Shown here piece by piece: positions 6,713-42,388 of a stretch of 57,356 nt of DNA. The stretch's first letter is position 1. Each line of letters starts with the position of its first letter. A program made the position numbers and the translations under genes. Source of the stretch: Alphaproteobacteria bacterium MarineAlpha5_Bin5 (GTDB lineage Bacteria > Pseudomonadota > Alphaproteobacteria > HIMB59 > GCA-002718135); contig PTKZ01000010.1 of the NCBI GenBank assembly GCA_002938205.1, positions 1 through 57,356 on the forward strand, written 5' to 3'. The notes under the pieces were generated by a model. That model worked only from the letters and a program-made list of their open reading frames with translations. It was not told the DNA's origin and did not search any database.

Positions 6713-7418
6713 ATTTAAAGGCATTCTTCTTTATCGTAAAATTTCAAAAGAAAATAATTTGTTTATTAAATTTTTATCTGAAAATGATGAAATTATTACT
6801 GGAATTGTTTTTGGAGGTTTATCCTCAAAGAATAAAAATTTATATCAATTAGGTAATTTTTTTCAATTTAATCTTTCAAGTAAAAAATTAAATTTTCCTT
6901 ACAGTATTAAAGGTGAATTGGATCAACCTTATCTATCTTCAGTTATTAATGATAAATATAAACTTAATTGTATAATGGCAATAGTTGCTGTTTTGAACCT
7001 ATCTATAATTGAAGGTCAAAAAATTAAAGGTATTTTTAGCACCACTGAAAAAATGATAAGTTTGTTAATTTTAAAAAAAAATTGGTTAATTGATTTTATT
7101 AAATATTTATACAATTTATTAAAAATTATTGGTTATGATACAGATTATGAAAATAATTCAAAAAATCCATTTTTTGATATTGTTTCACTTAAATTTAGTA
7201 GTTTAAAAGACAATAAATCATTATTATTTCCTCATAAATTATTTAATGACAAAATATCAGTAAATTATGAGTCTGTTAAATTAGCTTTTATAATTTTTGA
7301 AGAAATTTTTCAAAATAATCATTTAATTAATATGAATCTTAAATTACCTATCAGTTTCATTAAGTTTAGAGATTTAATTTTAACATTTCTTAAAAATAAA
7401 AATGACAAAACTAATTAA
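6696..7418 (+). CDS. recO: DNA repair protein RecO
   Basis: RecO works with RecR to load RecA on SSB-coated single-stranded DNA. The 240-residue protein has the RecO N-terminal OB-fold pattern (GILLYRKISKENNLFIKFLSE...ITGIVFGG), then an alpha-helical C-terminal region. It lacks the zinc-binding cysteines that many RecO proteins carry, which is common in AT-rich alphaproteobacteria. Position directly after era supports the call. The start is either the ATG at 6696 or the one at 6702; both overlap the era end. It overlaps parC by 17 bases. Confidence 0.85.
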   Translation: MIMENKFKGILLYRKISKENNLFIKFLSENDEIITGIVFGGLSSKNKNLYQLGNFFQFNLSSKKLNFPYSIKGELDQPYLSSVINDKYKLNCIMAIVAVLNLSIIEGQKIKGIFSTTEKMISLLILKKNWLIDFIKYLYNLLKIIGYDTDYENNSKNPFFDIVSLKFSSLKDNKSLLFPHKLFNDKISVNYESVKLAFIIFEEIFQNNHLINMNLKLPISFIKFRDLILTFLKNKNDKTN

Positions 7419-9600
7419 TAGTAAAATTGATAAAATTCTTAGTGAAAAATATTTATCTTATGCAGTTTCAACAATAGTTTCCCGTTCATTACCTGATGTT
7501 AGAGATGGCTTAAAGCCTGTGCACCGAAGAATTATTTACTCTATGTATCAATTGAATTTATTTAATAATTCTTCTTTTAAAAAATCAGCAAGAATTGTAG
7601 GTGATGTAATGGGTAAGTTTCATCCACATGGAGATCAAGCAATTTATCAAAGTCTTGTAAGGTTAGCTCAAGATTTTTCTACTAGGGTAACTTTAATTGA
7701 GGGACAAGGTAACTTTGGGAATGTAGACGGTGATAATGCAGCTGCAATGAGATATACTGAAGCTAGACTTGAAAAAATAGCAAATTATTTTTTTGATGGC
7801 ATTGAAGAAGACTCAGTAATTTTTAAAGAAAATTATGATGGTCAAAATCTTGAACCTGAAGTACTACCAACTAAGCTCCCTAATTTGCTTTTAAATGGTT
7901 CTTCAGGGATAGCTGTTGGTATGGCAACAAATATCCCTCCTCACAATCTTAAAGAATTAAATGATTGTTTAATTACATTATTAAAAAAACCAGATTTTAC
8001 AAATACACGACTAATTAATATTCTTACAGGACCTGATTTACCAACTGGAGGGGAAATAATTTTAACTACTGATGATAAAAAAAATATTTATACAAAAGGA
8101 ATAGGTTCATTTATCATTAATTCAAAGTGGCATTCTGAAAAATTAAAAAATGGAATGTATCAAATAATTATATCAGAAATACCTTATCAAGTTAACAAAA
8201 CTAAGATTATTGAACAATTAGCAAATTTAATTAATATTAAAAAAATACCTTTAGACGATGTAATAGATGAATCAGATCATAATATTAGGATAGTATTAAG
8301 ACCAAAAAATAGAAATATTGATTCATTTAAGTTAATGAATTTATGTTTTAAACTTACTGAACTATCAATCAAATTTTCATGTAATTTTAATGTATTAGAA
8401 GATGGAATTATTCCAAAACAATTGGGATTAAAGGAAATATTAGAGCAATTTATCAAATATAGAAAATTAACAATAAGAAGAAAATCTAAATTTAATATAA
8501 ATAAAATTAAGTTAAGGTTAGAAATTTTAGAAGGTTTTTTAATTGTTTATAAATTCCTAGATAAAATTATTAAAATAATTAGAAAACATGATGATCCAAA
8601 AAAAGAAATGATTAAAAAATTTAAACTTAATTTAAATCAAGCAGAAGCAATAATGTCTATGAGATTGGGTTCATTAAAAAAACTTGATGAGCAGAATACA
8701 ATACTTGAAATTAAAAATCTAAAACAAGAATTAAATTTTCTCAATAAATTAATTAAAAATAGCAAGATCTTAGATAATTATATTATTAAAGAAATAGAGG
8801 AAATTAATAATTCGATACCAGACAATATAAAGCTTAGAAGAACAAAAGTATTATCAAAATCAAACCTTAATACTGAAGTTAAAATTGACGAATTTGATGA
8901 AATTGAAAAACTCACAATAATTATTAATAAAGATTCAACTATAAAACGTTTAAAGGATTATCTAGATATAGATCAAATAAGAAAAGATGATAATAAAATT
9001 AAATATGCCACACATATTTTATCTAATGAAAAATTATTAATTTTTTTGTCTTCAGGGCGAGTTTTTAGTTTAGATCCAAATATTTTACCTGGAGGTAAGT
9101 CAAATCCCAAATCATTTATTCAATTTATTGAAGCTGGTACAAATGATAAAATTGTTGGAGTTTTAAATGGAAACCAAAATACAAAATGCTTATTTGTAAC
9201 AAAATTTGGTAAAGGTTTTATAGCCCCTACACAGAATATGATAACTAATCAAAGAAAAGGAAAACAAATTTTTAATCTTAAATCTAATGATAATGTAGTT
9301 AGAATTTTAAATTATAATAAAACACATCTAGTTTGTGTAACAAAATTAGGGAAAATGCTAATTTTTGATACTAATATTTTACCAATAATGAATAAAGGTG
9401 TCGGTGTTCAACTTATAAAATTAAAAGAAAATGATAATTTATCAGATGTTAAGCTAATTAACTTATCAGAAGGACTTCAATGGTTAATAGGATCCAAAAA
9501 AAGAAGAATAGAAGATGTAAGTTTTTGGAATGGTAAAAGGGCTCAGGCAGGAAAAAAAATTCCTAAATATTTTAATAAGTCTATGAAATTTGATTCATAA
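7402..9600 (+). CDS. parC: DNA topoisomerase IV subunit A
   Basis: ParC is the DNA-cutting subunit of topoisomerase IV, which decatenates replicated chromosomes. The N-terminal DNA gyrase/topo IV A domain is clear ([38 protein letters not shown]) and the catalytic tyrosine is Tyr 118 in [11 protein letters not shown] coiled-coil arm follows, then a C-terminal region with shortened beta-pinwheel-like repeats. At 732 residues it is closer to ParC than to GyrA (usually over 850), and the C-terminus has no clear GyrA box. Residues 79 and 83, the quinolone contact positions, are both Gln. It starts within recO. Confidence 0.93.
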
Positions 9601-9640
9601 CTAATAAATTTAATTTTATTAAAATAGGTAGATATATTTT

Positions 9641-10756
9641 ATGAATGATAGAAAAAATAAATTAAACACTCAGTCAGTTCTTTCAATGAAAAGTTCCGGA
9701 TATTATTCTCAGAAAACTATTGGTGCAAAAATAGCTATTGATTCAATACAGCCTCTTGTTGAAAAAGCTTTTAAAGAAATTCCTAAAAAAAATATTTTAA
9801 GGATTGCTGATTTTGGCAGTGCTGACGGAGGTACGAGTCAGGAAATGTGGTTTAATCTGATTAAAGAATTAAGAGATAAAGATGATAGGCAAATTGAAAT
9901 ACTTTATACAGATCTTTCATCAAATGATTTTTCAACATTATTTAGAACAATGCAAGGTATGGAAGGCAATTCTCAGTTTGCATATCAAAATTTATTTAAA
10001 GATGTTTTTGTACATGGCTGCGGTACTGGCTTTCATAAACAATTAATGCATGATAACTCATTGTCATTTGGTTTCTCAGCAACAGCTATGCATTATGTTT
10101 CTGAAAAACCTTGTCATATACAAAATCATGTTCACATGGTTGGGGCAAATTCTGAAGAAAAAGAAAAGTTTAAAATTCAAGCATCAAAAGATTGGGAATC
10201 AATATTACTTAGTAGAGCTAATGAGTTGATCTCTGGAGGGAGATTTATTTGTATTAATTTTGGTATTGATGAAAAAGGAAGATATCTTGGCAATACAGGC
10301 GGACACAATATGTTTGATAAATTTACTTTTTATTGGAAATCTCTAGAAGATAAACAAATTATTACAAAAGAGGAATTTGTTGCTGCTACATTTACACAGC
10401 ATTACAGAACATTAGAAGAATTTAGAAAACCTTTTGATGACCCTAAATCAAATATATCAAAAGCCGGTTTACGGTTAAAGTCTTGCAGTACAATGTTAAC
10501 TGATTGCCCCTACAAAGTTAATTATGAAAACAATAAAAATTCTATAACTTCAAAACAATATGCTGAAAGTCTAATACCTACATTAAGAAGTTGGTCTGAA
10601 ACAGTTTTTAGAACAGCATTAAATGGTCGAGAAGAAAATCAAATTAATGAAATCGTAAATAAATTTTATAAAGCATATCAAGATGAAGTGGTTTTAAATC
10701 CAGAAGGACATGCAATGGATTATGTACATGTAATAATGGATATAGAGAAAATTTAA
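9641..10756 (+). CDS. SABATH-like SAM-dependent carboxyl methyltransferase
   Basis: This 371-residue protein matches the layout of the SABATH family (salicylate/jasmonate carboxyl methyltransferase type, Pfam Methyltransf_7), best known from plants. The family transfers a methyl group from SAM to carboxyl groups or ring nitrogens. I see an N-terminal MKSSGYYSQKT segment like the family's SAM/substrate loop, the SAM motif IADFGSADGGTS at 55-66, TDLSSNDF at 90-97 (family: NDLPxNDF), and FGFSATAMHYVSEKP at 143-157 in the place of the SxxSLHWLS motif. No signal peptide or membrane segment is seen. It lies 40 bases after parC and ends 1 base from the convergent TRAP permease. The family call is fairly firm; the substrate is unknown. 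Confidence 0.8.
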   Translation: MNDRKNKLNTQSVLSMKSSGYYSQKTIGAKIAIDSIQPLVEKAFKEIPKKNILRIADFGSADGGTSQEMWFNLIKELRDKDDRQIEILYTDLSSNDFSTLFRTMQGMEGNSQFAYQNLFKDVFVHGCGTGFHKQLMHDNSLSFGFSATAMHYVSEKPCHIQNHVHMVGANSEEKEKFKIQASKDWESILLSRANELISGGRFICINFGIDEKGRYLGNTGGHNMFDKFTFYWKSLEDKQIITKEEFVAATFTQHYRTLEEFRKPFDDPKSNISKAGLRLKSCSTMLTDCPYKVNYENNKNSITSKQYAESLIPTLRSWSETVFRTALNGREENQINEIVNKFYKAYQDEVVLNPEGHAMDYVHVIMDIEKI

Positions 10757-10757
10757 A

Positions 10758-13415
10758 TCAGAAATTAAGTGATATATCTGTATGTACTGAACGACATGCA
10801 GCTACAAATATAGCTTGTTCATTTGTTAATTTTTCTTGCAATCTAAGACCTATCGTGTCTTTGATTAAACTATCAAATTTAATTAATTTAGGAAGCAAAT
10901 CTTTTTCAGCTTTAGCCCTCCAATCTTTTTCAAACAAATAAATATTATTTGCTTCATCTATAAGAGAATTGAATTTATTAATTTCTAGATCATCTTTTTT
11001 CAAAAGTCGTCTAGCTTTTGAAAGTTTTTCTTTAATTAAATCAGCACCTGCTATTACATTAAGACTTTTTTCAATGGATTTAATTTTATTCATTGCTTCA
11101 TTTTTTGTTTCTTTTAATATTAATTCTTTTAAAATTATAATTTTATTTTCAAAGTTATTTAGTTTATTTCTATCTTCTATTATTAATTTTATGATTTGAA
11201 TGTTTTCATATACTGTATCTACATTTCTTCTATATTGAGTAATTGCTTTCTTATTTTTTAAAGATAATTCATTATATTGATCATGATCAACTTCCCAATT
11301 TGAAGGAATTTTATTAGACAATTTATCCTTTTGATTAATCAATTCATCAATTTGAAACTGTATTTTATTAACTTTGTTTGATAAATTCTCTCTTTCTAAA
11401 TATTTTTTTTCTTTTTCTAATTTTTTAATTTTATTATTTATTTTAAATATTTTTTTTTGAATTTTTCTTACTGATAAATGTAAAGATCGATAATTTTTGC
11501 TATATTCATTTAAATCATTTTGAGTTACTTTAATATTTTTCACAAGTTCAAAAGTTAAAATTGCATTAGTAAAAGTTTCTTTTAAAAATTTTTTATTATC
11601 TTTAGGTAAATAATTAAGATTAATAGCACTTAATTCATTTATATTATCTTTAATAATATCACCTTTAGTTTCATATATTTCAAATTTATATTCCTCTAGA
11701 CATTCTTGTAATCTCGGATTTTTAGGAGGAGGAGACACTTCTGATGTTAAGTAAGTTCTGTAAGGTAGATAATTAACTAAAGATGGATAATATCCTACTA
11801 TACCTAAACCTACTAACTGAAGAACAATAAACGCTATAGCACCTCTCCATATTTGTATAGTTGATACTGTTTTAGGGGCAACCCCTCTTAAATAGAATAA
11901 AGAAAATCCAAAAGGCGGTGTGAGAAATGAAGTTTGCATATTTACACCAATCATAACACCCAGCCAAACAGCAGTTACATTAGCATCAGTTTGTGCCAGA
12001 AGAATAGGAGCAATGATAGGTACAACAACAACAGCAATTTCAATAAAATCAAGGAAAAAGCCTAAAATAAATATTACTGCCATTACTACAATAAATTGTG
12101 TCCAAAAACCTCCTGGTAAGCTTGTTAAAAATTCAGTTACTAATTCTTCACCTCCAAATCCTCTAAATGCAGCAGTTAACATTGCAGCACCTACTAGAAT
12201 AATAAATACCATTGAAGTAGTTACACAAGTTTCTATAGCTACTCCTTTTAAAGTTTCATCAATTATTAAAGTTCTATAAAAGCTCCAGAAAACAGAAAAG
12301 GTGAGAGCAAAAACCGCTACACCAGCCAAAGTAATTCCTATTATATCATTATTACTTGTTATATCTTTAACTCGTAAATCAAAATTATTTATAAGAAAAT
12401 AGATTGCTATTATAGAAAGAACAGCGATTATAGAAGGTGTATAAGCATGTTTCTTTCCTTCATAAAGTCTATAACCACCCATAATTGTGGCACCTACTGC
12501 TCCAATTGCACCTGCTTGATTAACAGTTGCGATACCTAATATAATTGATCCCAAAACTATAAATATTAGTGTGAGTGGAGGAACTAAAGATAGAAATACT
12601 TTTTTAGCAAAACCAAAATCATAGTTGCCATCATAAGGTACAGGAGGAGCAACACTTGGTTTTATTCTAGCATAAACTAAAACGTAAATCATATACAAGC
12701 CAACTAGAACTAAGCCAGGAAAAAATGCTCCTAGAAACATATCTCCGGCACTAGTTGAAGAGACAGAAAAAGCGCCAGGCATACTAAATTCACCAGTAAA
12801 TAATTTGTATTCTGCTTGTCTTGCAGTATTAGCGACATCAGATGCACTTGCCAATTGGTCAGCAAGTATAATTAAAACAATTGAAGGGGGGATAATTTGA
12901 CCCAAAGTACCAGAAGAGCAAACAATACCACTTGCAAGAGATTTGTCATAATTATTTCTCAACATAGCTGGAAGCGAAATCAAACCCATAGCAACAACAG
13001 TAGCACCAACAATTCCTGTTGTTGCTGCAAGTAAAGCACCTACAAATATTACAGAAGTTCCAAGACCTCCAGGTATTGGTCCAAAAAGTTGTCCCATAGT
13101 AACCAATAAATCTTCAGCTATTTTTGATCTTTGCAACATAATACCCATAAAAATAAAAAGAGGTATTGCGATCAAAGTATCTCTTTCAACTTCCCAATAT
13201 ACTGCTCTAAAATTTGTAATTCCTGCTGATAACCATTGTATAGGACCATCTTGATGAAAATATTCACTAGCATTGCCTGCAAATAAATATCCAGCCAATG
13301 CAGCTAATAAAATTGTAAGAACAGCAGAACCTGGTAAAGAAAATGCAACAGGAAAACCTGATCCAAGTGCAATGATCATCGTTAAAATTAAAATTAATAA
13401 AAAAACAGTTTCCAT
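10758..13415 (-). CDS. dctM: TRAP transporter large permease (DctM type) with coiled-coil C-terminal extension
   Basis: It is the main channel-forming subunit of a tripartite ATP-independent periplasmic transporter, which uses an ion gradient. Residues 1 to about 560 are DctM-like, with many membrane segments and family motifs (IPLFIFMGIMLQRS, GIVGATVVAMG, SSGTLGQIIPPS, FFLDFIEIAVVVVPI, TPPFGFSLFY). From about residue 562 to 885 (bases 10758-11732) there is an unusual hydrophilic, Lys/Glu/Asn-rich tail with long heptad-like helices, predicted to lie in the cytoplasm. DctM proteins usually have about 430-600 residues. Its start codon overlaps the dctQ stop. Confidence 0.93.
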   Translation of the reverse strand: METVFLLILILTMIIALGSGFPVAFSLPGSAVLTILLAALAGYLFAGNASEYFHQDGPIQWLSAGITNFRAVYWEVERDTLIAIPLFIFMGIMLQRSKIAEDLLVTMGQLFGPIPGGLGTSVIFVGALLAATTGIVGATVVAMGLISLPAMLRNNYDKSLASGIVCSSGTLGQIIPPSIVLIILADQLASASDVANTARQAEYKLFTGEFSMPGAFSVSSTSAGDMFLGAFFPGLVLVGLYMIYVLVYARIKPSVAPPVPYDGNYDFGFAKKVFLSLVPPLTLIFIVLGSIILGIATVNQAGAIGAVGATIMGGYRLYEGKKHAYTPSIIAVLSIIAIYFLINNFDLRVKDITSNNDIIGITLAGVAVFALTFSVFWSFYRTLIIDETLKGVAIETCVTTSMVFIILVGAAMLTAAFRGFGGEELVTEFLTSLPGGFWTQFIVVMAVIFILGFFLDFIEIAVVVVPIIAPILLAQTDANVTAVWLGVMIGVNMQTSFLTPPFGFSLFYLRGVAPKTVSTIQIWRGAIAFIVLQLVGLGIVGYYPSLVNYLPYRTYLTSEVSPPPKNPRLQECLEEYKFEIYETKGDIIKDNINELSAINLNYLPKDNKKFLKETFTNAILTFELVKNIKVTQNDLNEYSKNYRSLHLSVRKIQKKIFKINNKIKKLEKEKKYLERENLSNKVNKIQFQIDELINQKDKLSNKIPSNWEVDHDQYNELSLKNKKAITQYRRNVDTVYENIQIIKLIIEDRNKLNNFENKIIILKELILKETKNEAMNKIKSIEKSLNVIAGADLIKEKLSKARRLLKKDDLEINKFNSLIDEANNIYLFEKDWRAKAEKDLLPKLIKFDSLIKDTIGLRLQEKLTNEQAIFVAACRSVHTDISLNF

Positions 13416-14392
13416 TAATTTGAATCTGTTTTTAATAATTTAGAAGAATTATTCATAAAAAAACTAGTAAATTGAATAAGCATGGTTAAGGCATAAATAG
13501 CAAGAAAACCTGCCATTAAATACTTAACCTGCATTCCATAACCACTCATAGATTGTTCAAAGCTTTTTATTGGAGCATTTAAGATGCATTGTTGACACCA
13601 CATACCTCTAAGTAAAATTGTTGCACAAATAGGAATGCCAAGAAATAATGAGCCAAGCAGATTTGACCAAGCTTTACCTCTTTCAGAAAACTTTGTATAA
13701 AGAATATCAACTCTTACATGACCTTCTTTTATTAAAGCATAAGAACTAGCAAATAAAAAAAGAGATCCATACCAGAATCTCACAAGGTCACCCATAAAAG
13801 TTTGTTCGTAAGAAAATATAAAACGTGCTACTACAATTTGAAATTCAGCAATAACAACTAAAAAAGCAAGCCAAAAAAATCCAAGAGTTTTAGTAAAATA
13901 GCCAATAATAAAGGCTAAAATTATTAAGGGAAAATGAATAAAAGATCCTCTGAAAGCAGATTTACCTAAATTCATTCCTAAATTTTCTCCAAATAAAGGT
14001 ATTAGAAAATCTTCAACTCTTAAAAAAGATAGAATCATGTCTACTATTCCTACAATTAAAACACCCCAAAAACATGATCTGATTATATAGGCTGAAAAAT
14101 TACTTAAGTATTCAGAATCCTTTTCTATTTTTATGTTGTTGTATAATTTTACGTAAACAAATGAAAATAATATAGCTATTATATAAATTAAAAACTGTAT
14201 CCAAGATTTATAAAATTCTTTTAAGTTTAATTCTTTATCGTTTTCAAAAAAAATATTGTAATTTGCAAAAAACCTATCAACTCCAGGAAAATCATACCAA
14301 AAATTTAATATATTATTTATTAAGAACGCAAAGGTAAGAAAGATTATTGACCAGCTAAATATTCTTATAGGATTATTAAAATTATTTATCAT
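13415..14392 (-). CDS. dctQ: TRAP transporter small permease (DctQ type), enlarged
   Basis: DctQ pairs with DctM in the inner membrane. The recognisable DctQ core lies at about residues 180-325 (FARFIF-like segment, FASSYALIKEGHVRVDILY, then further membrane helices). The first 170 residues hold about four additional hydrophobic segments not found in the usual 160-200 residue DctQ. Enlarged small permeases occur in the mannitol/chloroaromatic-type TRAP group. It shares one base with dctM and follows dctP across a hairpin-containing gap, so permease expression is probably lower than that of the binding protein. Confidence 0.87.
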   Translation of the reverse strand: MINNFNNPIRIFSWSIIFLTFAFLINNILNFWYDFPGVDRFFANYNIFFENDKELNLKEFYKSWIQFLIYIIAILFSFVYVKLYNNIKIEKDSEYLSNFSAYIIRSCFWGVLIVGIVDMILSFLRVEDFLIPLFGENLGMNLGKSAFRGSFIHFPLIILAFIIGYFTKTLGFFWLAFLVVIAEFQIVVARFIFSYEQTFMGDLVRFWYGSLFLFASSYALIKEGHVRVDILYTKFSERGKAWSNLLGSLFLGIPICATILLRGMWCQQCILNAPIKSFEQSMSGYGMQVKYLMAGFLAIYALTMLIQFTSFFMNNSSKLLKTDSN

Positions 14393-14424
14393 AAATAACG
14401 AAAATTCTTATTTATATAATTATT

Positions 14425-14449
14425 AAAAAAGCGGAGATTAACTCTCCGC
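14425..14449 (-). terminator. intercistronic hairpin/terminator between dctP and dctQ
   Basis: Read on the minus strand, GCGGAGA (14449-14443) pairs with TCTCCGC (14437-14431) around a 5-base loop, and is followed by a run of six T (14430-14425). This is a good intrinsic terminator shape and one of only two GC-rich hairpins I see in the window. Lying inside an operon after the binding-protein gene, it probably causes partial termination and protects the dctP message from 3' decay, giving excess binding protein. Confidence 0.8.
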
Positions 14450-14462
14450 TTTTAAATTTATA

Positions 14463-15569
14463 TTAAACTCCTAGAGCTCTATTTCTTTGTTTTAAATATG
14501 CTCCATCTGATAGTTTCATCCATGCTCCAATTTCAGCACGAGCATTAACAAAACTTTCATGAGTTCTTCTCGCAAGATCACTATGTTCAACAACTTCAGC
14601 ATATACTTCTGCAGATGCCTCTGAAAATGCATCATAAACATCATCATTGAATTCTTTTAACACAACACCTTGTTCATCAATCAATTTTTTAAGAGATGAA
14701 CCATTATTAGCATTATATTCTGACATCATAATATCATTTTCACATGTTGCTGCAGCTTCAATCATAGCTTGATCAGATGCTGATAAACTTGTTAGCCAAG
14801 ATTTATTACATCCAGCTGCAAGCATTGATGCAGGTTCATGCATTCCAGGATAATAGTAATATTTTGCAGCTTCATAGAATTTCATAAAAGCATCATTCCA
14901 TGGTCCAACCCACTCAGTTGCATCAATAGCACCTGAAACTAGGTTTTCATAAATCTGCCCACCGGGAAGTGACACTGGAGATGCTCCTAGTTTAGCGATG
15001 ACATCGCCACCTAGACCAGGCATACGCATTTTAAGTCCTTTAAAATCACTAGCTGAATTAATTTCCTTATTAAACCAACCGCCCATTTGAACTCCTGTGT
15101 TACCACACATAAAGTTTTTCAGGCCATAGCCATCAGCAAGTTCATCCCAAAGTTCTTGACCACCCGCAAATCTAATCCAAGCATTAATTTCAGAATAACT
15201 GAAACCAAATGGAACAGCAGTGAAATAAGCCCAAGCAGGATGTTTACCTTTCCAGTAGTAGTCAGCAGCATGATACATTTGAGCATTACCTGAAGCAACT
15301 TCATCAAATGAATCAAAAGCCCCAACACGTTCACCAGCAGCAAAGTATTCAACATTAAATCGACCATCACTTAAAGTTGATAATCTTTCAGCAAATCTTT
15401 GAGCTCCTGTACCAAGACCTGGAAAATCTCTTGGCCATGTAGCAACCATAGCAATGTCTACTCTATCAGCTGCTATAGCTGGAGCAGGAAAAGAGGATAC
15501 TGCTGCTGCAGCCGCACCTGCTAAGCCGGCTTTCTTAATAAAGTCACGACGTTTTACGTTTTTTTTCAT
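14463..15569 (-). CDS. dctP: TRAP transporter substrate-binding protein, TakP-like (DctP)
   Basis: A 368-residue periplasmic binding protein. The N-terminus has a twin-arginine signal (KRRDFIKKAG, hydrophobic Ala-rich core, probable cleavage after AIA near residue 33), so it is exported folded. The mature part resembles Rhodobacter TakP, which binds 2-oxo acids with sodium: NTGVQMGGWFNKEI, LKMRMPG (the Arg that binds the carboxylate) and IDATEWVGP (the sodium/substrate Glu-Trp). Pyruvate-like or branched 2-oxo acids are therefore plausible ligands, by inference. A strong AAGGAGG ribosome site precedes the ATG. Confidence 0.92.
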   Translation of the reverse strand: MKKNVKRRDFIKKAGLAGAAAAAVSSFPAPAIAADRVDIAMVATWPRDFPGLGTGAQRFAERLSTLSDGRFNVEYFAAGERVGAFDSFDEVASGNAQMYHAADYYWKGKHPAWAYFTAVPFGFSYSEINAWIRFAGGQELWDELADGYGLKNFMCGNTGVQMGGWFNKEINSASDFKGLKMRMPGLGGDVIAKLGASPVSLPGGQIYENLVSGAIDATEWVGPWNDAFMKFYEAAKYYYYPGMHEPASMLAAGCNKSWLTSLSASDQAMIEAAATCENDIMMSEYNANNGSSLKKLIDEQGVVLKEFNDDVYDAFSEASAEVYAEVVEHSDLARRTHESFVNARAEIGAWMKLSDGAYLKQRNRALGV

Positions 15570-15573
15570 ATTT

Positions 15574-15647
15574 CCTCCTTAGTTATATGAATTTTTATAA
15601 AATCAACATAACTTAAAAATGTTAAAAATAATAACAATTTTTTGCAA
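15574..15647 (-). promoter_or_regulatory. putative promoter and strong ribosome-binding site of the TRAP operon
   Basis: On the minus strand, TTGCAA (15647-15642) and TAACAT (15624-15619) are separated by 17 bases and match sigma-70-type -35 and -10 elements. The Shine-Dalgarno sequence AAGGAGG lies at 15580-15574, five bases before the dctP ATG. Few genes in the window have such a strong site. The promoter is an inference from sequence only. Confidence 0.45.
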
Positions 15648-15719
15648 GTAAATTAAATTTACCTTAATTGATTTAAATTAGAATAAGTGCTAATTAATGT
15701 TGTTTTTATTTGATATAGA

Positions 15720-16901
15720 TCAAAAAGCAGATAATTTAGTCTGATTACTGCCTAGAATTAAAGCGTGAATATCTTCAGTTCCTTCGTAAGTTTTAACAGT
15801 TTCTAAATTTACCAAATGCCTCATTATGTGATTTTCTTCTAACAGTCCATTTGCTCCCAATATATCTCTAGCATTTCTAACTATATTGATCGCTTTTTTA
15901 CAATTATTTCTTTTAAGAATACTGACTGCAATTTTAGTGTCATTATTTTTATCTATTTCTCTTCCAGTAAGGACACATGAGCTTAATGCTATATTAATTT
16001 CAGTTTGCATATCAGCTAATTTTTTTTGAATTAGTTGTTTAGTAGCTAAAGGTTTTTTAAACATGATTCGATTTTCAGAGTATTCTTTTGCGATTAACCA
16101 GCATTCACTTGCAGCACCTAGAGCACCCCATGAGATTCCGTAACGTGCTTTATTTAAGCAACTAAATACTGATTTCCAACCAGTAGTTTTAGGAAGAAGA
16201 TTTTCTAAAGGGACAATTACATTATCCAACATTATTTGTCCTGTTGGACTAATTTTTAAACTTGCTTTATTTTCTATTAGAGATGTTGAAAGACCAGAAA
16301 AACTTTTTTCTAAAATAAATCCTTTTATAGAATCTTTTTCAAGATTTTCAGATAAAGCCCATATTATAAACACATCTGCAATAGGAGCATTAGTAATCCA
16401 GTTTTTAATTCCATTAAGAACATATCCTTTAAGAGTTTTTTTATATGTAGTTTTCATTGAAGAAGGATCAGACCCAGCTTCACTTTCTGTCAAACCAAAG
16501 CAACCTATTTTTTCCCCATTAATAAGATCAGGTAAATATTTATCTTTTTGCTCTTCAGATCCAAAATTACTTATTGGATGTATAACAAGTGATGATTGAA
16601 CAGAAATCGATGACCTATAACTACTATCAATTTTTTCTAATTCATATGCGGTTAAGCCATAAGCCACATTATTAGTATCAGCTCCTCCATGAGAATTCAT
16701 TGTTTGACCTAGTACTCCTATAGATCCAAATAATTGGAATAATTTTTTATCAAATTTATAATTTAAATTGTTATATACAACTTTTGGTCTTAGCTCTTTA
16801 TCACAAAATTCTCTTATATTTTTTTGAATTTGCATTTCTTCTTCACTTAAATTATCAAATATATAAAAAGGATCAAACCAGTTATTTTGTTTCATAAACA
16901 A
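15720..16901 (-). CDS. gcdH: glutaryl-CoA dehydrogenase
   Basis: This FAD enzyme oxidises and decarboxylates glutaryl-CoA to crotonyl-CoA in lysine and tryptophan breakdown. The 393-residue protein fits the acyl-CoA dehydrogenase fold. Features specific to the glutaryl subgroup are the DSSYRSSISVQSS segment, whose Arg contacts the glutaryl carboxylate, FGLTESEAGSDP, and the catalytic Glu in TYEGTEDIH near residue 380. It lies upstream of dctP on the same strand but 150 bases away, so it may be a separate unit. The divergent rpiB starts 52 bases away. Confidence 0.9.
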   Translation of the reverse strand: MFMKQNNWFDPFYIFDNLSEEEMQIQKNIREFCDKELRPKVVYNNLNYKFDKKLFQLFGSIGVLGQTMNSHGGADTNNVAYGLTAYELEKIDSSYRSSISVQSSLVIHPISNFGSEEQKDKYLPDLINGEKIGCFGLTESEAGSDPSSMKTTYKKTLKGYVLNGIKNWITNAPIADVFIIWALSENLEKDSIKGFILEKSFSGLSTSLIENKASLKISPTGQIMLDNVIVPLENLLPKTTGWKSVFSCLNKARYGISWGALGAASECWLIAKEYSENRIMFKKPLATKQLIQKKLADMQTEINIALSSCVLTGREIDKNNDTKIAVSILKRNNCKKAINIVRNARDILGANGLLEENHIMRHLVNLETVKTYEGTEDIHALILGSNQTKLSAF

Positions 16902-38397: not shown

Positions 38398-39689
38398 ATT
38401 TAACAACTTCTTATGTAGGTATTTTAAGTTTAATTATTTTTGTTATAGCCTATGCTGTTGTGATGGCTGAAGAATTTAGTCATTTGAGAAAATCTAAACC
38501 AGTAATTATTTCTGCAGCTGTAATATGGGCTATAATAGCCTTTAATTTTGCCTCTGACAAGACATATGCTCATGAAATAGAACATGCGCTAGAGCATAAT
38601 ATTTTAGAATTTGCAGAACTTTTTTTATTTTTGTTAGTTGCTATGACTTATATTAATTCACTAGAAGAAAGAAAAGTATTTGATGTAGTACGTTATCAAT
38701 TAACATCACGAGGCTTTAGTTTTCGCCAACTTTTTATATTTACCGGAATAATTACATTCTTTCTTTCTCCAATAGCAGATAATTTAACCACTGCTCTTGT
38801 TATGTGTTCAGTTTTGATGGCATGTGGTAAGGGAAATACTAAATTTATATCACTAGGATGTATAAACATTGTTGTAGCTGCTAATGCCGGAGGGGCATTC
38901 AGTCCCTTTGGAGATATAACTACATTAATGGTTTGGCAGGCTGGAATTGTAGAATTTTTTACATTTTTTAAAATATTTTTTCCTTCTGTAATAAATTATG
39001 TCATTCCTGCTACAATTATGTATTTTTTTATTCCAAATGAAAAACCTGAAGTTAGCACTGATAAAGTTTACATAAAAAGAGGAGGAAAATTGATTATATT
39101 TTTAGGCCTTTTAACAATATTTAGCGCTGTCAATTTTCATAATTTTTTACATTTACCACCAATGCTGGGAATGATGTTTGGAATGGGATTATTGGGATTA
39201 TATTCTTTTTATTTAAAAATTTCACATGAACCTTCATTTGAAGATCAAAAATTTGATTTCTTCAGAAATGTTTCCAAAGCAGAATGGGATACTTTGCTAT
39301 TCTTTTTTGGAGTAATTCTTAGCGTTGGTGGTTTAGGTTTTATTGGTTATTTATCTTTAGTATCAGAATTTTTATATGATGGACTTGGAGCTACAATGGC
39401 AAATACGATTGTTGGTGTACTTTCAGCTATAGTTGATAATATTCCAGTTATGTTTGCAGTGATTACGATGCAACCCGAAATGTCTACTGATCAATGGCTG
39501 CTAGTAACTTTGACAACTGGTGTAGGAGGAAGTTTACTTTCTATAGGATCGGCTGCAGGTGTTGCATTAATGGGCCAAGCAAGAGGTTATTATACTTTTT
39601 TTGGCCATTTAAAATGGACACCTGTAATTTTTTTAGGGTACATAGCTAGTATTTATCTTCATGTTTTGATGGCTGATTTACCTTTATAA
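38388..39689 (+). CDS. nhaD: Na+/H+ antiporter NhaD
   Basis: It exchanges sodium for protons across the inner membrane. The 433-residue protein has about 12 membrane helices and NhaD/ArsB-type features: FFLSPIADNLTTALVM, INIVVAANAGGAFSPFGDITTLMVWQAG and, in the second half, VLSAIVDNIPVMFAVI and GVGGSLLSIGSAAGVALMGQ. Its last 31 bases overlap the end of thiP on the other strand. Together with hppA it points to active management of proton and sodium gradients. Confidence 0.93.
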   Translation: MEINLTTSYVGILSLIIFVIAYAVVMAEEFSHLRKSKPVIISAAVIWAIIAFNFASDKTYAHEIEHALEHNILEFAELFLFLLVAMTYINSLEERKVFDVVRYQLTSRGFSFRQLFIFTGIITFFLSPIADNLTTALVMCSVLMACGKGNTKFISLGCINIVVAANAGGAFSPFGDITTLMVWQAGIVEFFTFFKIFFPSVINYVIPATIMYFFIPNEKPEVSTDKVYIKRGGKLIIFLGLLTIFSAVNFHNFLHLPPMLGMMFGMGLLGLYSFYLKISHEPSFEDQKFDFFRNVSKAEWDTLLFFFGVILSVGGLGFIGYLSLVSEFLYDGLGATMANTIVGVLSAIVDNIPVMFAVITMQPEMSTDQWLLVTLTTGVGGSLLSIGSAAGVALMGQARGYYTFFGHLKWTPVIFLGYIASIYLHVLMADLPL

Positions 39690-41248
39690 TTAAAGTTATC
39701 AATTACAAAAAAAATTATCATACAAAATATTAATATAAACCCAGCAACAAAAGAAGCGTCTTCAAAACGATAAACTGTAATTAATCTATATAAATATAAA
39801 GGCATTGTTTCAAAGTTTTGATCTCTGAAGAAAGAAATTATAGTAAAATCACCGAAAGTTATTACTGTTGAAAATGAAAAAATATAAAGAATATTTTTTC
39901 TCATTAATGGAAATACAATTATAAAGAAATTAATTAGATTTATTCTAAAAGAATTTTTTATGTCTTTGTAATCTAAATAAATATTTTTAAGATTGTTAAA
40001 AAGAATTAGTATTGAAAAGGGAATTAAGAACATTGAATTTATTAAAATAACTACAAAAAATTTAAAAAAATATATGTATTTAAGTTCTTTAAGTACAATA
40101 AAATAACCAAGACTAAATATGATAGGTGATACTATTATAATTGAAGAACTAAATAAAAATAAAAATTGTTGTAAAAAAATATTTTTATAATTTAAAACAA
40201 GTAAAAGACATATAATAAATCCTAAAATACTAACGAATAATCCTGTAATAATAGAAATTGTAAAAGAATTAATGAATGCGTTAATAAATTCATAATCATA
40301 AAATATTTTGAATGATATATTATATAAAAAATTAGAAAAAATTAATATTATGGGTGAAAATAAAAATATAGAGAATATTAATATTAAGATGATGTCTGAT
40401 AATTTTACAAAAAATATATTTTTGTGTGGATGCAGAAAGTTATTGATTTCTATTTCAAAAAAATTTGAACCTTTTAATTTATAAAAACCAATAAATACAA
40501 AAAAAATACATATAATAATTTGTATAAAACTTAATAGGATTGCTTTATTAAAATTTAGTTCAAATAATGCATATTGATAAATGGCAACTTCAATTGTAGA
40601 GTTTTTTGGCCCACCTCCTAAAGCCATAACAATAGCAAAACTTAAAAAGCATAGAGCAAAAATTATGGAAAATATTGTAAAAATGTTCTGCTTTATAACA
40701 GGTATTTCTAATTTTATAATATTAGCAATATAGGAAAGATTAATTGAGTTTGAGATTTCATAATATTTTATAGGAATATTATTTAAATTATTAAAAAAAA
40801 GTCTTGTTGCAAATGGAGTGTTAAGCAATATATGAGCAATTAAAATTGCTTTAATTCCATAAATAGATTCAATAGATATAAGGTTGTAAAAATTAAAATA
40901 AACATTAAAAAACCCATTGTATCCAAATAATTTGATTACTGAATAAACTATTAGTATTGTTGGTATAACAAAAGAAAAACCACATAAAGAAATTATTATT
41001 TTTATTATTTTTAAATTTTTATGTCTATTTAAAGCTAATGAAAAAGGAATTGCTAATAAACAAGTTATTAATGAAGAAAAAAATGCTTGGTATAAAGAAA
41101 AATATATTATTCTATGAGTGTAAGAATTTTTTAAAAAATTAATTATTAATTTTAAGTCATAACTTATTTTTGAAAAAATACCTACAAAAGGCAATAACAA
41201 TACAATGCAAAAAAAACTTAATAGGAAATAATTATATTTATTGTACAA
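39659..41248 (-). CDS. thiP: thiamine ABC transporter permease ThiP
   Basis: A 529-residue fused permease with about 12 membrane helices. Two halves each carry an EAA-like loop for the ATPase (around YYEISNSINLSYI in the first, DYKDIKNSFRI in the second). Its length is close to E. coli ThiP (536). Identity as ThiP rather than an iron permease rests on the adjacent thiB and TPP riboswitch. No thiQ ATPase gene follows; the convergent nhaD overlaps its 3' end instead. It starts 5 bases after thiB. Confidence 0.88.
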   Translation of the reverse strand: MYNKYNYFLLSFFCIVLLLPFVGIFSKISYDLKLIINFLKNSYTHRIIYFSLYQAFFSSLITCLLAIPFSLALNRHKNLKIIKIIISLCGFSFVIPTILIVYSVIKLFGYNGFFNVYFNFYNLISIESIYGIKAILIAHILLNTPFATRLFFNNLNNIPIKYYEISNSINLSYIANIIKLEIPVIKQNIFTIFSIIFALCFLSFAIVMALGGGPKNSTIEVAIYQYALFELNFNKAILLSFIQIIICIFFVFIGFYKLKGSNFFEIEINNFLHPHKNIFFVKLSDIILILIFSIFLFSPIILIFSNFLYNISFKIFYDYEFINAFINSFTISIITGLFVSILGFIICLLLVLNYKNIFLQQFLFLFSSSIIIVSPIIFSLGYFIVLKELKYIYFFKFFVVILINSMFLIPFSILILFNNLKNIYLDYKDIKNSFRINLINFFIIVFPLMRKNILYIFSFSTVITFGDFTIISFFRDQNFETMPLYLYRLITVYRFEDASFVAGFILIFCMIIFFVIDNFNYKGKSAIKT

Positions 41249-41253
41249 TTAAT

Positions 41254-42240
41254 TTATGATGCATTAAGCCACTCGTTTATCCACTCTTCTTTTCTAGCAT
41301 TTATTTCTTCAGGATCTAATTGTAATACTTTTGGTATTTCAAGAATATTAAATGCCTTTGGAAGATCTTGAATATTAGTAACTGGATACATAATATTTGT
41401 TGATGGAAGAACTGATTGAAAATCTTCAGAGATCATAAATTGCAGAAACTTATTTGCTATAAGTTTATTATTAGATGTTGCTAAAATGCCTGCAAATTCT
41501 ATTGATAAGTAATTTCCTTCTTCAAAAATAGCCGCAGATATATCATAATTTTCTTCAAACATAATATGTGCAGCAGGTGAAGTTGTGTAACTAAGTACCA
41601 TGTCTGCTTCATTGTTCATAAAAAAATTATAATATGCATCTGTCCATCCTTTGGTCACAGCAATAATTTTTTTATTTAATTTTTCCCATTCTTTTTTAGC
41701 ATTATCTCCGTATATTGCTTTCATCCATGTTAATAATCCCAAACCAGGTGTAGAAGTTCTTGGATCTTGGATAACTATTCTCGCATTAGTTATATTAATT
41801 AATTCATTCATTGATTTTGGAGGATTTCTTAGATTTTGGTTATTATAAACAAATGCAAAATATCCATAATTGTAAGGAACAAATATTTCACTATCCCATT
41901 TGGTTGGTAAATTGATTTTTTGATTTAAGTTTTCAATTTTATGATAGGTAAATAAATTCGATTTATTTGCTGCATCAAATAAATTCATATCTAGACCTAA
42001 AACTATGTCTGCTTTAGTTGATGGTCCTTCTAAAATTACTTTATTCAAAAGTGTTGCAGAACTATCTACAATAACAAATTCAAGCTCTGTATTAAATCTT
42101 TCTTCAAAAATTTTTTCAATTATTGGTCCAGGGCCCCATTCAGATATGAATGAATCATAAGTATAGATTATAAGAGCTTTAGCTTTCACCGATAAAGAGA
42201 AGAGTAAAAAAAAGAAAAAAGAAGAAGCTATTGTTTTCAT
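41254..42240 (-). CDS. thiB: thiamine-binding periplasmic protein ThiB
   Basis: It captures thiamine or its phosphates for import. After a Sec signal peptide (about residues 1-20), the 328-residue protein follows ThiB closely: IYTYDSFISEWGPGP, DIVLGLDMNLFDAA, VPYNYGYFAFVYN, QDPRTSTPGLGLLTWMKAIYG, VTKGWTDAYYNF and VLSYTTSPAAH. The start codon lies 4 bases after a GGAGG sequence that forms the 3' edge of the TPP riboswitch. With ThiL in the same window, imported thiamine monophosphate could be turned directly into TPP. Confidence 0.95.
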   Translation of the reverse strand: MKTIASSFFFFLLFSLSVKAKALIIYTYDSFISEWGPGPIIEKIFEERFNTELEFVIVDSSATLLNKVILEGPSTKADIVLGLDMNLFDAANKSNLFTYHKIENLNQKINLPTKWDSEIFVPYNYGYFAFVYNNQNLRNPPKSMNELINITNARIVIQDPRTSTPGLGLLTWMKAIYGDNAKKEWEKLNKKIIAVTKGWTDAYYNFFMNNEADMVLSYTTSPAAHIMFEENYDISAAIFEEGNYLSIEFAGILATSNNKLIANKFLQFMISEDFQSVLPSTNIMYPVTNIQDLPKAFNILEIPKVLQLDPEEINARKEEWINEWLNAS

Positions 42241-42305
42241 GTTTCCTCCGCTGGCATTATCCAGATCAGGTTAAAAGGGTATAAATCTCAGCATCAGCAC
42301 CCCTA
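42241..42305 (-). promoter_or_regulatory. TPP riboswitch (THI element)
   Basis: On the minus strand just before thiB, the conserved THI-box segments appear in order: GGGGTGCTGATGCTGAGA, ATACCC, ACCTGATCTGGATAATGCCAGCG and GGAGG. This is the TPP-binding aptamer. The terminal GGAGG is also the only Shine-Dalgarno sequence, 4 bases from the ATG, so ligand binding probably blocks translation directly; there is no room for a separate terminator. The outer P1 helix is not obvious in the flanking AT-rich sequence. Confidence 0.96.
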
Positions 42306-42388
42306 ATTAATAAGTATAAATAATAATTATTTAAAAACAAACTAAAAAGAATTGTTTTTAAGTTTTTTATCAATATAACCATTTTTCT

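Follow-up and report, generated by a model that had tools for sequence, protein, structure and literature searches.

A SABATH-fold methyltransferase of a separate bacterial subfamily recurs beside TakP-type TRAP transporters in alphaproteobacteria

What does a SABATH-type methyltransferase do in a small alphaproteobacterial genome, where its gene meets that of an organic-acid transporter end to end? SABATH enzymes have, to our knowledge, been studied almost entirely in plants. The window, i.e., the whole stretch of DNA analysed, comprises 57,356 nt of contig PTKZ01000010.1 from Alphaproteobacteria bacterium MarineAlpha5_Bin5. The host had been called streamlined in a sequence-only reading of the locus, a description that fits its 1.58 Mb assembly (55 contigs, 92% complete) and the GC content of roughly 21-36% across the window. 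The gene is as follows:

9641-10756, plus strand: SABATH-fold SAM-dependent methyltransferase (PF03492), 371 aa, single copy in the genome (ORF, Pfam and predicted structure)

The open reading frame begins with ATG and is intact, with no internal stop. The Pfam search that the sequence-only reading had called for gives a single match for the translated aa sequence, to PF03492 Methyltransf_7 (102.4 bits, the family cut-off being 29.8 bits; E 3.6e-29; profile positions 12-331 of 335), and no other methyltransferase family scores. Among NCBIfam models no match to a methyltransferase was found at E 1e-3, and no curated equivalog was passed. The 14 control genomes contain no PF03492 gene. The ORF lies exactly where the sequence-only reading had placed it, and its assignment to the SABATH type is borne out by the Pfam match and by the fold of the predicted structure.

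An AlphaFold2 model of the enzyme was built from 46 homologues (pLDDT 89.4, pTM 0.88) and superposed on solved structures with Foldseek and VIA-align. SABATH structures take all the top ranks, and residues 6-371 are aligned. The alpha-helical cap, which had been singled out beforehand as the element to look for, is present in the model and included in the aligned region. The mycobacterial fatty-acid O-methyltransferase (FAMT; 5f2k, 5f2n, 5f2o) superposes with a Z of 38.8 and an rmsd of 2.3 over 346 residues, and the plant SABATH structures with Z of 28.8-33.1 and rmsd of 2.4-3.3 over 308-334 residues; the next fold group reaches a Z of at most 19.4. FAMT is also the closest solved sequence (E 4e-20), followed by plant SABATH enzymes, and it is the sole bacterial SABATH among the solved structures matched. 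Identity by structure is nevertheless only about 20-21% to FAMT. The plant enzymes SAMT (1m6e), IAMT (3b5i) and LAMT (6c8r) share PF03492, the whole fold with its cap and the SAM-site segments with the window enzyme, but are 16-19% identical to it, and the window gene is bacterial and lies beside TRAP transporter genes. The caffeine-pathway N-methyltransferases (2efj, 2eg5, 6lyh, 8uzd), whose substrates are purines, have the same fold, a fold thus able to methylate nitrogen. Since the SABATH structures rank first with a clear gap in Z and the cap is present, we consider membership of the protein in the SABATH homologous family settled at the level of sequence and model.

Residues were mapped by a profile alignment of the subfamily to SAMT, IAMT, LAMT and FAMT (1m6e, 6c8r and 5f2k among the structures), with residue roles taken from the LAMT and caffeine-synthase papers. 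Two segments of the SAM site are:

9809-9838, plus strand: SAM-binding motif I region DFGSADGGTS (residues 57-66), aligned to SAMT ADLGCSSGPN; D57, G59, G64, T65 and S66 invariant
9911-9928, plus strand: SAM-site segment DLSSND (D91-D96), matching the DLPGND segment of plant SABATH enzymes

T26, D57, D91, D96 and F131 align with SAM-site segments and are invariant in the 46 homologues. It should be noted that motif conservation in the best 80 of 353 relatives is partly circular, because these loci were found by two of the motifs. They are also present in homologues L027-L039, found by the Pfam profile alone, with the exception of the remote L026, in which the motifs differ. Judged from its sequence, the enzyme is probably catalytically active.

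The 353 relatives come from a scan of species genomes; the best 80 of them are almost all alphaproteobacterial, many of them marine, and include single-cell genomes, SAR116/Puniceispirillum, Rhodobacteraceae, Amorphus and Acuticoccus. The family had been described as sparse in bacteria, and in the sampled sense this holds: a PF03492 gene is found in 12 of 384 other alphaproteobacterial species and in 4 of 398 genomes of a phylum draw (window included), though 38 of about 100 species of the window's own genus carry the enzyme. Sampling of sister genera and of the order's other families gave no carrier. By alignment and model the window enzyme is assigned to a separate, uncharacterised bacterial subfamily of SABATH-fold methyltransferases, mainly alphaproteobacterial; this analysis found no characterised member of it. 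No papers tying the family to alphaproteobacteria, marine bacteria or AEGEAN-169 were found in the open-licence literature, which is weak evidence. A window-genus locus, at 72% identity, also occurs in a record titled "Euryarchaeota archaeon isolate ARS96" (L062), probably a mis-binned contig.

The neighbour on the opposite strand is a complete TRAP transporter:

10758-13415, minus strand: DctM large permease, 885-aa long form with a C-terminal extension; its stop codon is 1 bp from the methyltransferase stop
13415-14392, minus strand: DctQ small permease, 325 aa, with a long N-terminal part (Pfam)
14463-15569, minus strand: DctP binding protein of the TakP alpha-keto-acid class; six TakP ligand/sodium residues matched

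The best solved relatives of the DctP are TakP (E 5e-72) and others that include a "ketoacid-binding protein". TakP binds sodium-pyruvate via Tyr100, Gln156, Arg177, Glu214, Trp215 and Glu240 (PMC1839085), and the window DctP keeps all six, as Y105, Q161, R182, E219, W220 and E245. From this relatedness and the intact set of ligand residues the transporter is predicted to import 2-oxo acids, i.e., to be a TakP-type alpha-keto-acid system. This supports the earlier suggestion of a neighbour that imports small organic acids, and makes it more specific. The window system differs from TakPQM of Rhodobacter sphaeroides (2hzk, 2hzl) in that the two DctP proteins are 37% identical and the window DctM is the 885-residue form with its C-terminal extension. 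In addition, the TakP paper (PMC1839085) has no word for a partner methyltransferase, whereas the window TRAP adjoins one. The enzyme and TRAP genes are convergent in the window genus and do not form one operon.

The DctM extension is an observation in its own right. About 310 residues past the transporter domain have no Pfam match, and matches that span all or most of the long-form DctM are present in 31 of 385 alphaproteobacterial genomes; the long form therefore represents a widespread, apparently unannotated TRAP variant.

Within the genus, enzyme and transporter occupy a variable site between two constant genes:

7402-9600, plus strand: parC (topoisomerase IV subunit A), constant upstream flank (locus comparison)
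15720-16901, minus strand: acyl-CoA dehydrogenase, constant downstream flank (Pfam and locus comparison)

The region 9600-16901 is a swap site that holds one of two alternative TakP-type TRAP alleles. Allele A consists of the enzyme and the TRAP with the 885-residue DctM; allele B is a different TakP-type TRAP, with a DctP about 40% identical and a short DctM, and has no enzyme. In complete loci of the genus the allele-A TRAP is always accompanied by the enzyme, and allele B never. Enzyme and allele-A DctP occur together in 35 of the genomes searched, and in the three enzyme-only and four DctP-only genomes a contig end falls within the locus or next to it. On a tree of the flanking dehydrogenase the enzyme label needs nine changes, at least six of them forced by supported branches, and all five supported independent pairs agree on the link between enzyme and TRAP allele (sign test, p 0.0625). 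Protein identity between the window and genome G105 is uneven along the site (parC 65%, enzyme 69%, DctM 85%, DctQ 90%, DctP 97%, dehydrogenase 70%), and the site is therefore a mosaic produced by recombination. Three genomes of other genera (g4, g5 and g7) have allele A with no enzyme found: the slot of the enzyme holds nothing in genome G149 and a 3-hydroxybutyrate dehydrogenase-like gene in G143, and the contig of G144 ends inside DctM. A remnant of the enzyme was sought in the G143 gap and was not found. The G143 slot gene (L135:13329-14117) passes NF009093 and sits in the exact place of the methyltransferase, beside the same TRAP allele.

The link extends beyond the window's genus. Among distant alphaproteobacteria there are four gene orders in which the enzyme directly adjoins a TakP-type TRAP; in the GC-rich loci (Amorphaceae and genome G189) genes were called by tblastn and GC3-based calling. 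In the window genus the enzyme faces DctM-DctQ-DctP. SAR116 has DctP-DctQ-DctM-enzyme in one direction, with a long DctM 54-55% identical to that of the window over about 886 residues and a DctP 68-72% identical. The order in Amorphus coralli is DctQ-DctM-DctP-enzyme, of which DctM-DctP-enzyme was identified in Acuticoccus mangrovi. G189 has enzyme-DctP-DctQ-DctM, with an enzyme that is only 41% identical. Two additional DctP proteins that were tested are again of the TakP class; in the Amorphaceae DctP two of the six ligand residues are changed (Glu to Asp and Trp to Phe). The window-genus and SAR116 associations fall into non-sister clades of the enzyme tree. At the genome level, among 385 alphaproteobacteria, the long-DctM TRAP is present in 9 of 13 genomes with the enzyme and in 22 of 372 others (Fisher p 2.5e-8); counted by genus, the only and rough way in which relatedness was handled, it is present in 5 of 8 with the enzyme and in 19 of 268 without (p 1.5e-4). 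In several of the co-occurring genomes the two lie on different contigs. The suspected connection between enzyme and transporter is stronger than the sequence-only reading had supposed, with independent support from gene order, from alleles within the genus and from co-occurrence among genomes. A SAR116-type TRAP-enzyme cluster is also found in L111, a record titled Porticoccaceae (a gammaproteobacterium), through either horizontal transfer or mis-binning.

The reading that we prefer, at an even chance of being right, is that the enzyme beside the TakP-type TRAP methylates an imported small acid of the 2-oxo or hydroxy type, or a close derivative, and that the product is most likely the methyl ester. 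Several observations count against it. The natural ligand of TakP itself is not established (PMC1839085). The allele-B DctP keeps the same keto-acid residues though it is never found with the enzyme, and allele A occurs with no enzyme found in genera g4, g5 and g7 (three genomes). In the class, 22 of the 31 genomes with a long-DctM TRAP are without the enzyme, and in many lineages the enzyme has varied neighbours and no TRAP nearby.

This last observation, together with the interchangeable alleles at the parC-to-dehydrogenase site and the clear sign of recombination in the G105 identity profile, also favours a simpler account, in which the enzyme, as a carboxyl methyltransferase of the ordinary small-molecule kind, esterifies an endogenous acid, and in which its adjacency to the TRAP is hitch-hiking at a recombination hot spot. 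However, hitch-hiking leaves unexplained why the adjacency arose independently in SAR116, Amorphaceae and G189, where the chromosomal surroundings differ, and why enzyme and TRAP co-occur on different contigs. We regard this account as unlikely, though it deserves serious weight.

The remaining neighbourhoods of the enzyme are relevant to the substrate. A second recurring context has an M19 dipeptidase and an uncharacterised protein of ~550 residues, often with an Ldh_2 dehydrogenase, a family that acts on 2-oxo and hydroxy acids. It is found in family f66, in Amorphaceae (together with the TRAP) and in L133, and without Ldh_2 in L100, L103 and L119. In a third context a malonyl-CoA synthase-type CoA ligase adjoins the enzyme or lies close by, together with gamma-glutamyltransferase, DUF1330 and RraA-like genes, and on a Rhizobium plasmid the enzyme lies beside a D-amino-acid-oxidase-like gene. 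Most of these contexts point to pathways for small oxo, hydroxy or amino acids, without naming a substrate. A proline-betaine/hydroxyproline pathway was considered for the M19, Ldh_2 and aldehyde dehydrogenase neighbours and was set aside, as neither a paper nor an NCBIfam model above cut-off was found for it. The ~550-residue protein (L122:6455-8119, L115, L116, L119, L181-L183) has no Pfam or NCBIfam match and occurs in several distant lineages.

The residues that line the substrate site are a further guide to the chemistry:

9725-9727, plus strand: Ala29 codon, at the position of SAMT Gln25, LAMT Gln38 and FAMT Gln31 by profile alignment; Ala in 46/46 homologues
10091-10096, plus strand: His151-Tyr152, at the site of the plant SABATH substrate-binding His-Trp pair (LAMT H162-W163)
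10586-10597, plus strand: R316-S-W318-S319 of the cap helix; Trp318 invariant in the subfamily, Ala in FAMT
10709-10729, plus strand: C-terminal H357-A-M-D360-Y361-V-H363, the polar residues of which do not vary within the subfamily

LAMT grips the carboxylate of its substrate through H162, W163 and Q38, and its mutants H162A and W163F are almost inactive (PMC10420828). Of this trio the window enzyme keeps only the His, shared with LAMT and IAMT; in the profile alignment the Gln is replaced by Ala29 and the Trp by Tyr152. His151 is kept in all 46 aligned homologues, and position 152 is Tyr in 43 and Trp in 3. Trp318 and the polar C-terminal HxMDYxH are specific to the subfamily in comparison with plant SABATH enzymes. 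The sequence-only reading had held that all characteristic segments are present. For the SAM-site segments this is correct. Of the three residues that hold the carboxylate, however, two have been exchanged, and the label "carboxyl methyltransferase" therefore cannot be transferred by homology.

The alignment of His151 with the carboxylate-binding LAMT His162 speaks for the preferred reading, esterification of an imported acid. In such a mechanism SAM would be bound in the conserved Rossmann site, and His151 would hold the small acid beneath the helical cap, where Tyr152, Trp318, Tyr361 and further invariant polar residues would stand in for the plant Gln and Trp contacts. Methyl transfer would proceed by direct attack, the mechanism of other SABATH enzymes. 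The substrate would be a small 2-oxo or hydroxy acid brought in by the TRAP, or a close derivative. We infer catalysis, the use of the TRAP solute or its derivative as substrate, the carboxylate as the methylated group and any role of the product.

The same residues bear on a second alternative, that the transported acid is methylated away from its carboxylate, at N, S, O or C, as the caffeine-branch SABATH enzymes methylate a ring nitrogen. Since two of the three contacts are lost, with only the His kept, and LAMT W163F is nearly inactive, the carboxylate may not be the target, and nitrogen-methylating SABATH enzymes are known from tea and coffee structures. However, the known N-methyltransferases, unlike the window enzyme, keep the His-Trp pair (PMC11709435), so that loss of the Trp does not point to nitrogen. 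We consider this alternative improbable. A bolder form of it, to which we give about as little credence, is that the subfamily dropped the plant carboxylate grip, transfers the methyl group to another atom (S, N, O or C) of a transported 2-oxo or hydroxy acid, and constitutes with the TakP-type TRAP an undescribed import-and-methylate module in ocean bacteria. A DMSP-type S-methylation role for the enzyme would be speculation.

It is quite unlikely that the enzyme belongs to the mycobacterial FAMT group and esterifies free or 3-hydroxy fatty acids: FAMT (5f2k) is the nearest solved structure by sequence and fold, but at the low identity given above, FAMT Gln31 and Trp155 correspond to Ala29 and Tyr152, FAMT Gln154 to the invariant His151 of the subfamily, so that the FAMT residue set is not seen, and the neighbours concern short acids, not lipids. 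Least probable of all is a degenerate, non-catalytic homologue kept for another role, as the altered carboxylate contacts might suggest, since the SAM site and many pocket residues are invariant down to 39% identity and the frames are open in all genomes listed.

Two points are worth following, the recurring link to a transporter and the changes in the acid-binding site. As a distinct branch in which this site is rebuilt, the bacterial subfamily would show the reach of the chemistry of the SABATH fold, and its repeated place beside keto-acid TRAPs gives a short list of substrates open to test. Since small-genome marine bacteria and SAR116 are among the carriers, a methylated product could matter for the turnover of small organic acids in the sea.

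Elsewhere in the window, a 529-residue ORF with no Pfam match at E 1e-3 (39659-41248, minus strand) lies directly downstream of a minus-strand gene (41254-42240) that is preceded by a TPP riboswitch at 42226-42314 (minus strand, 60.3 bits).
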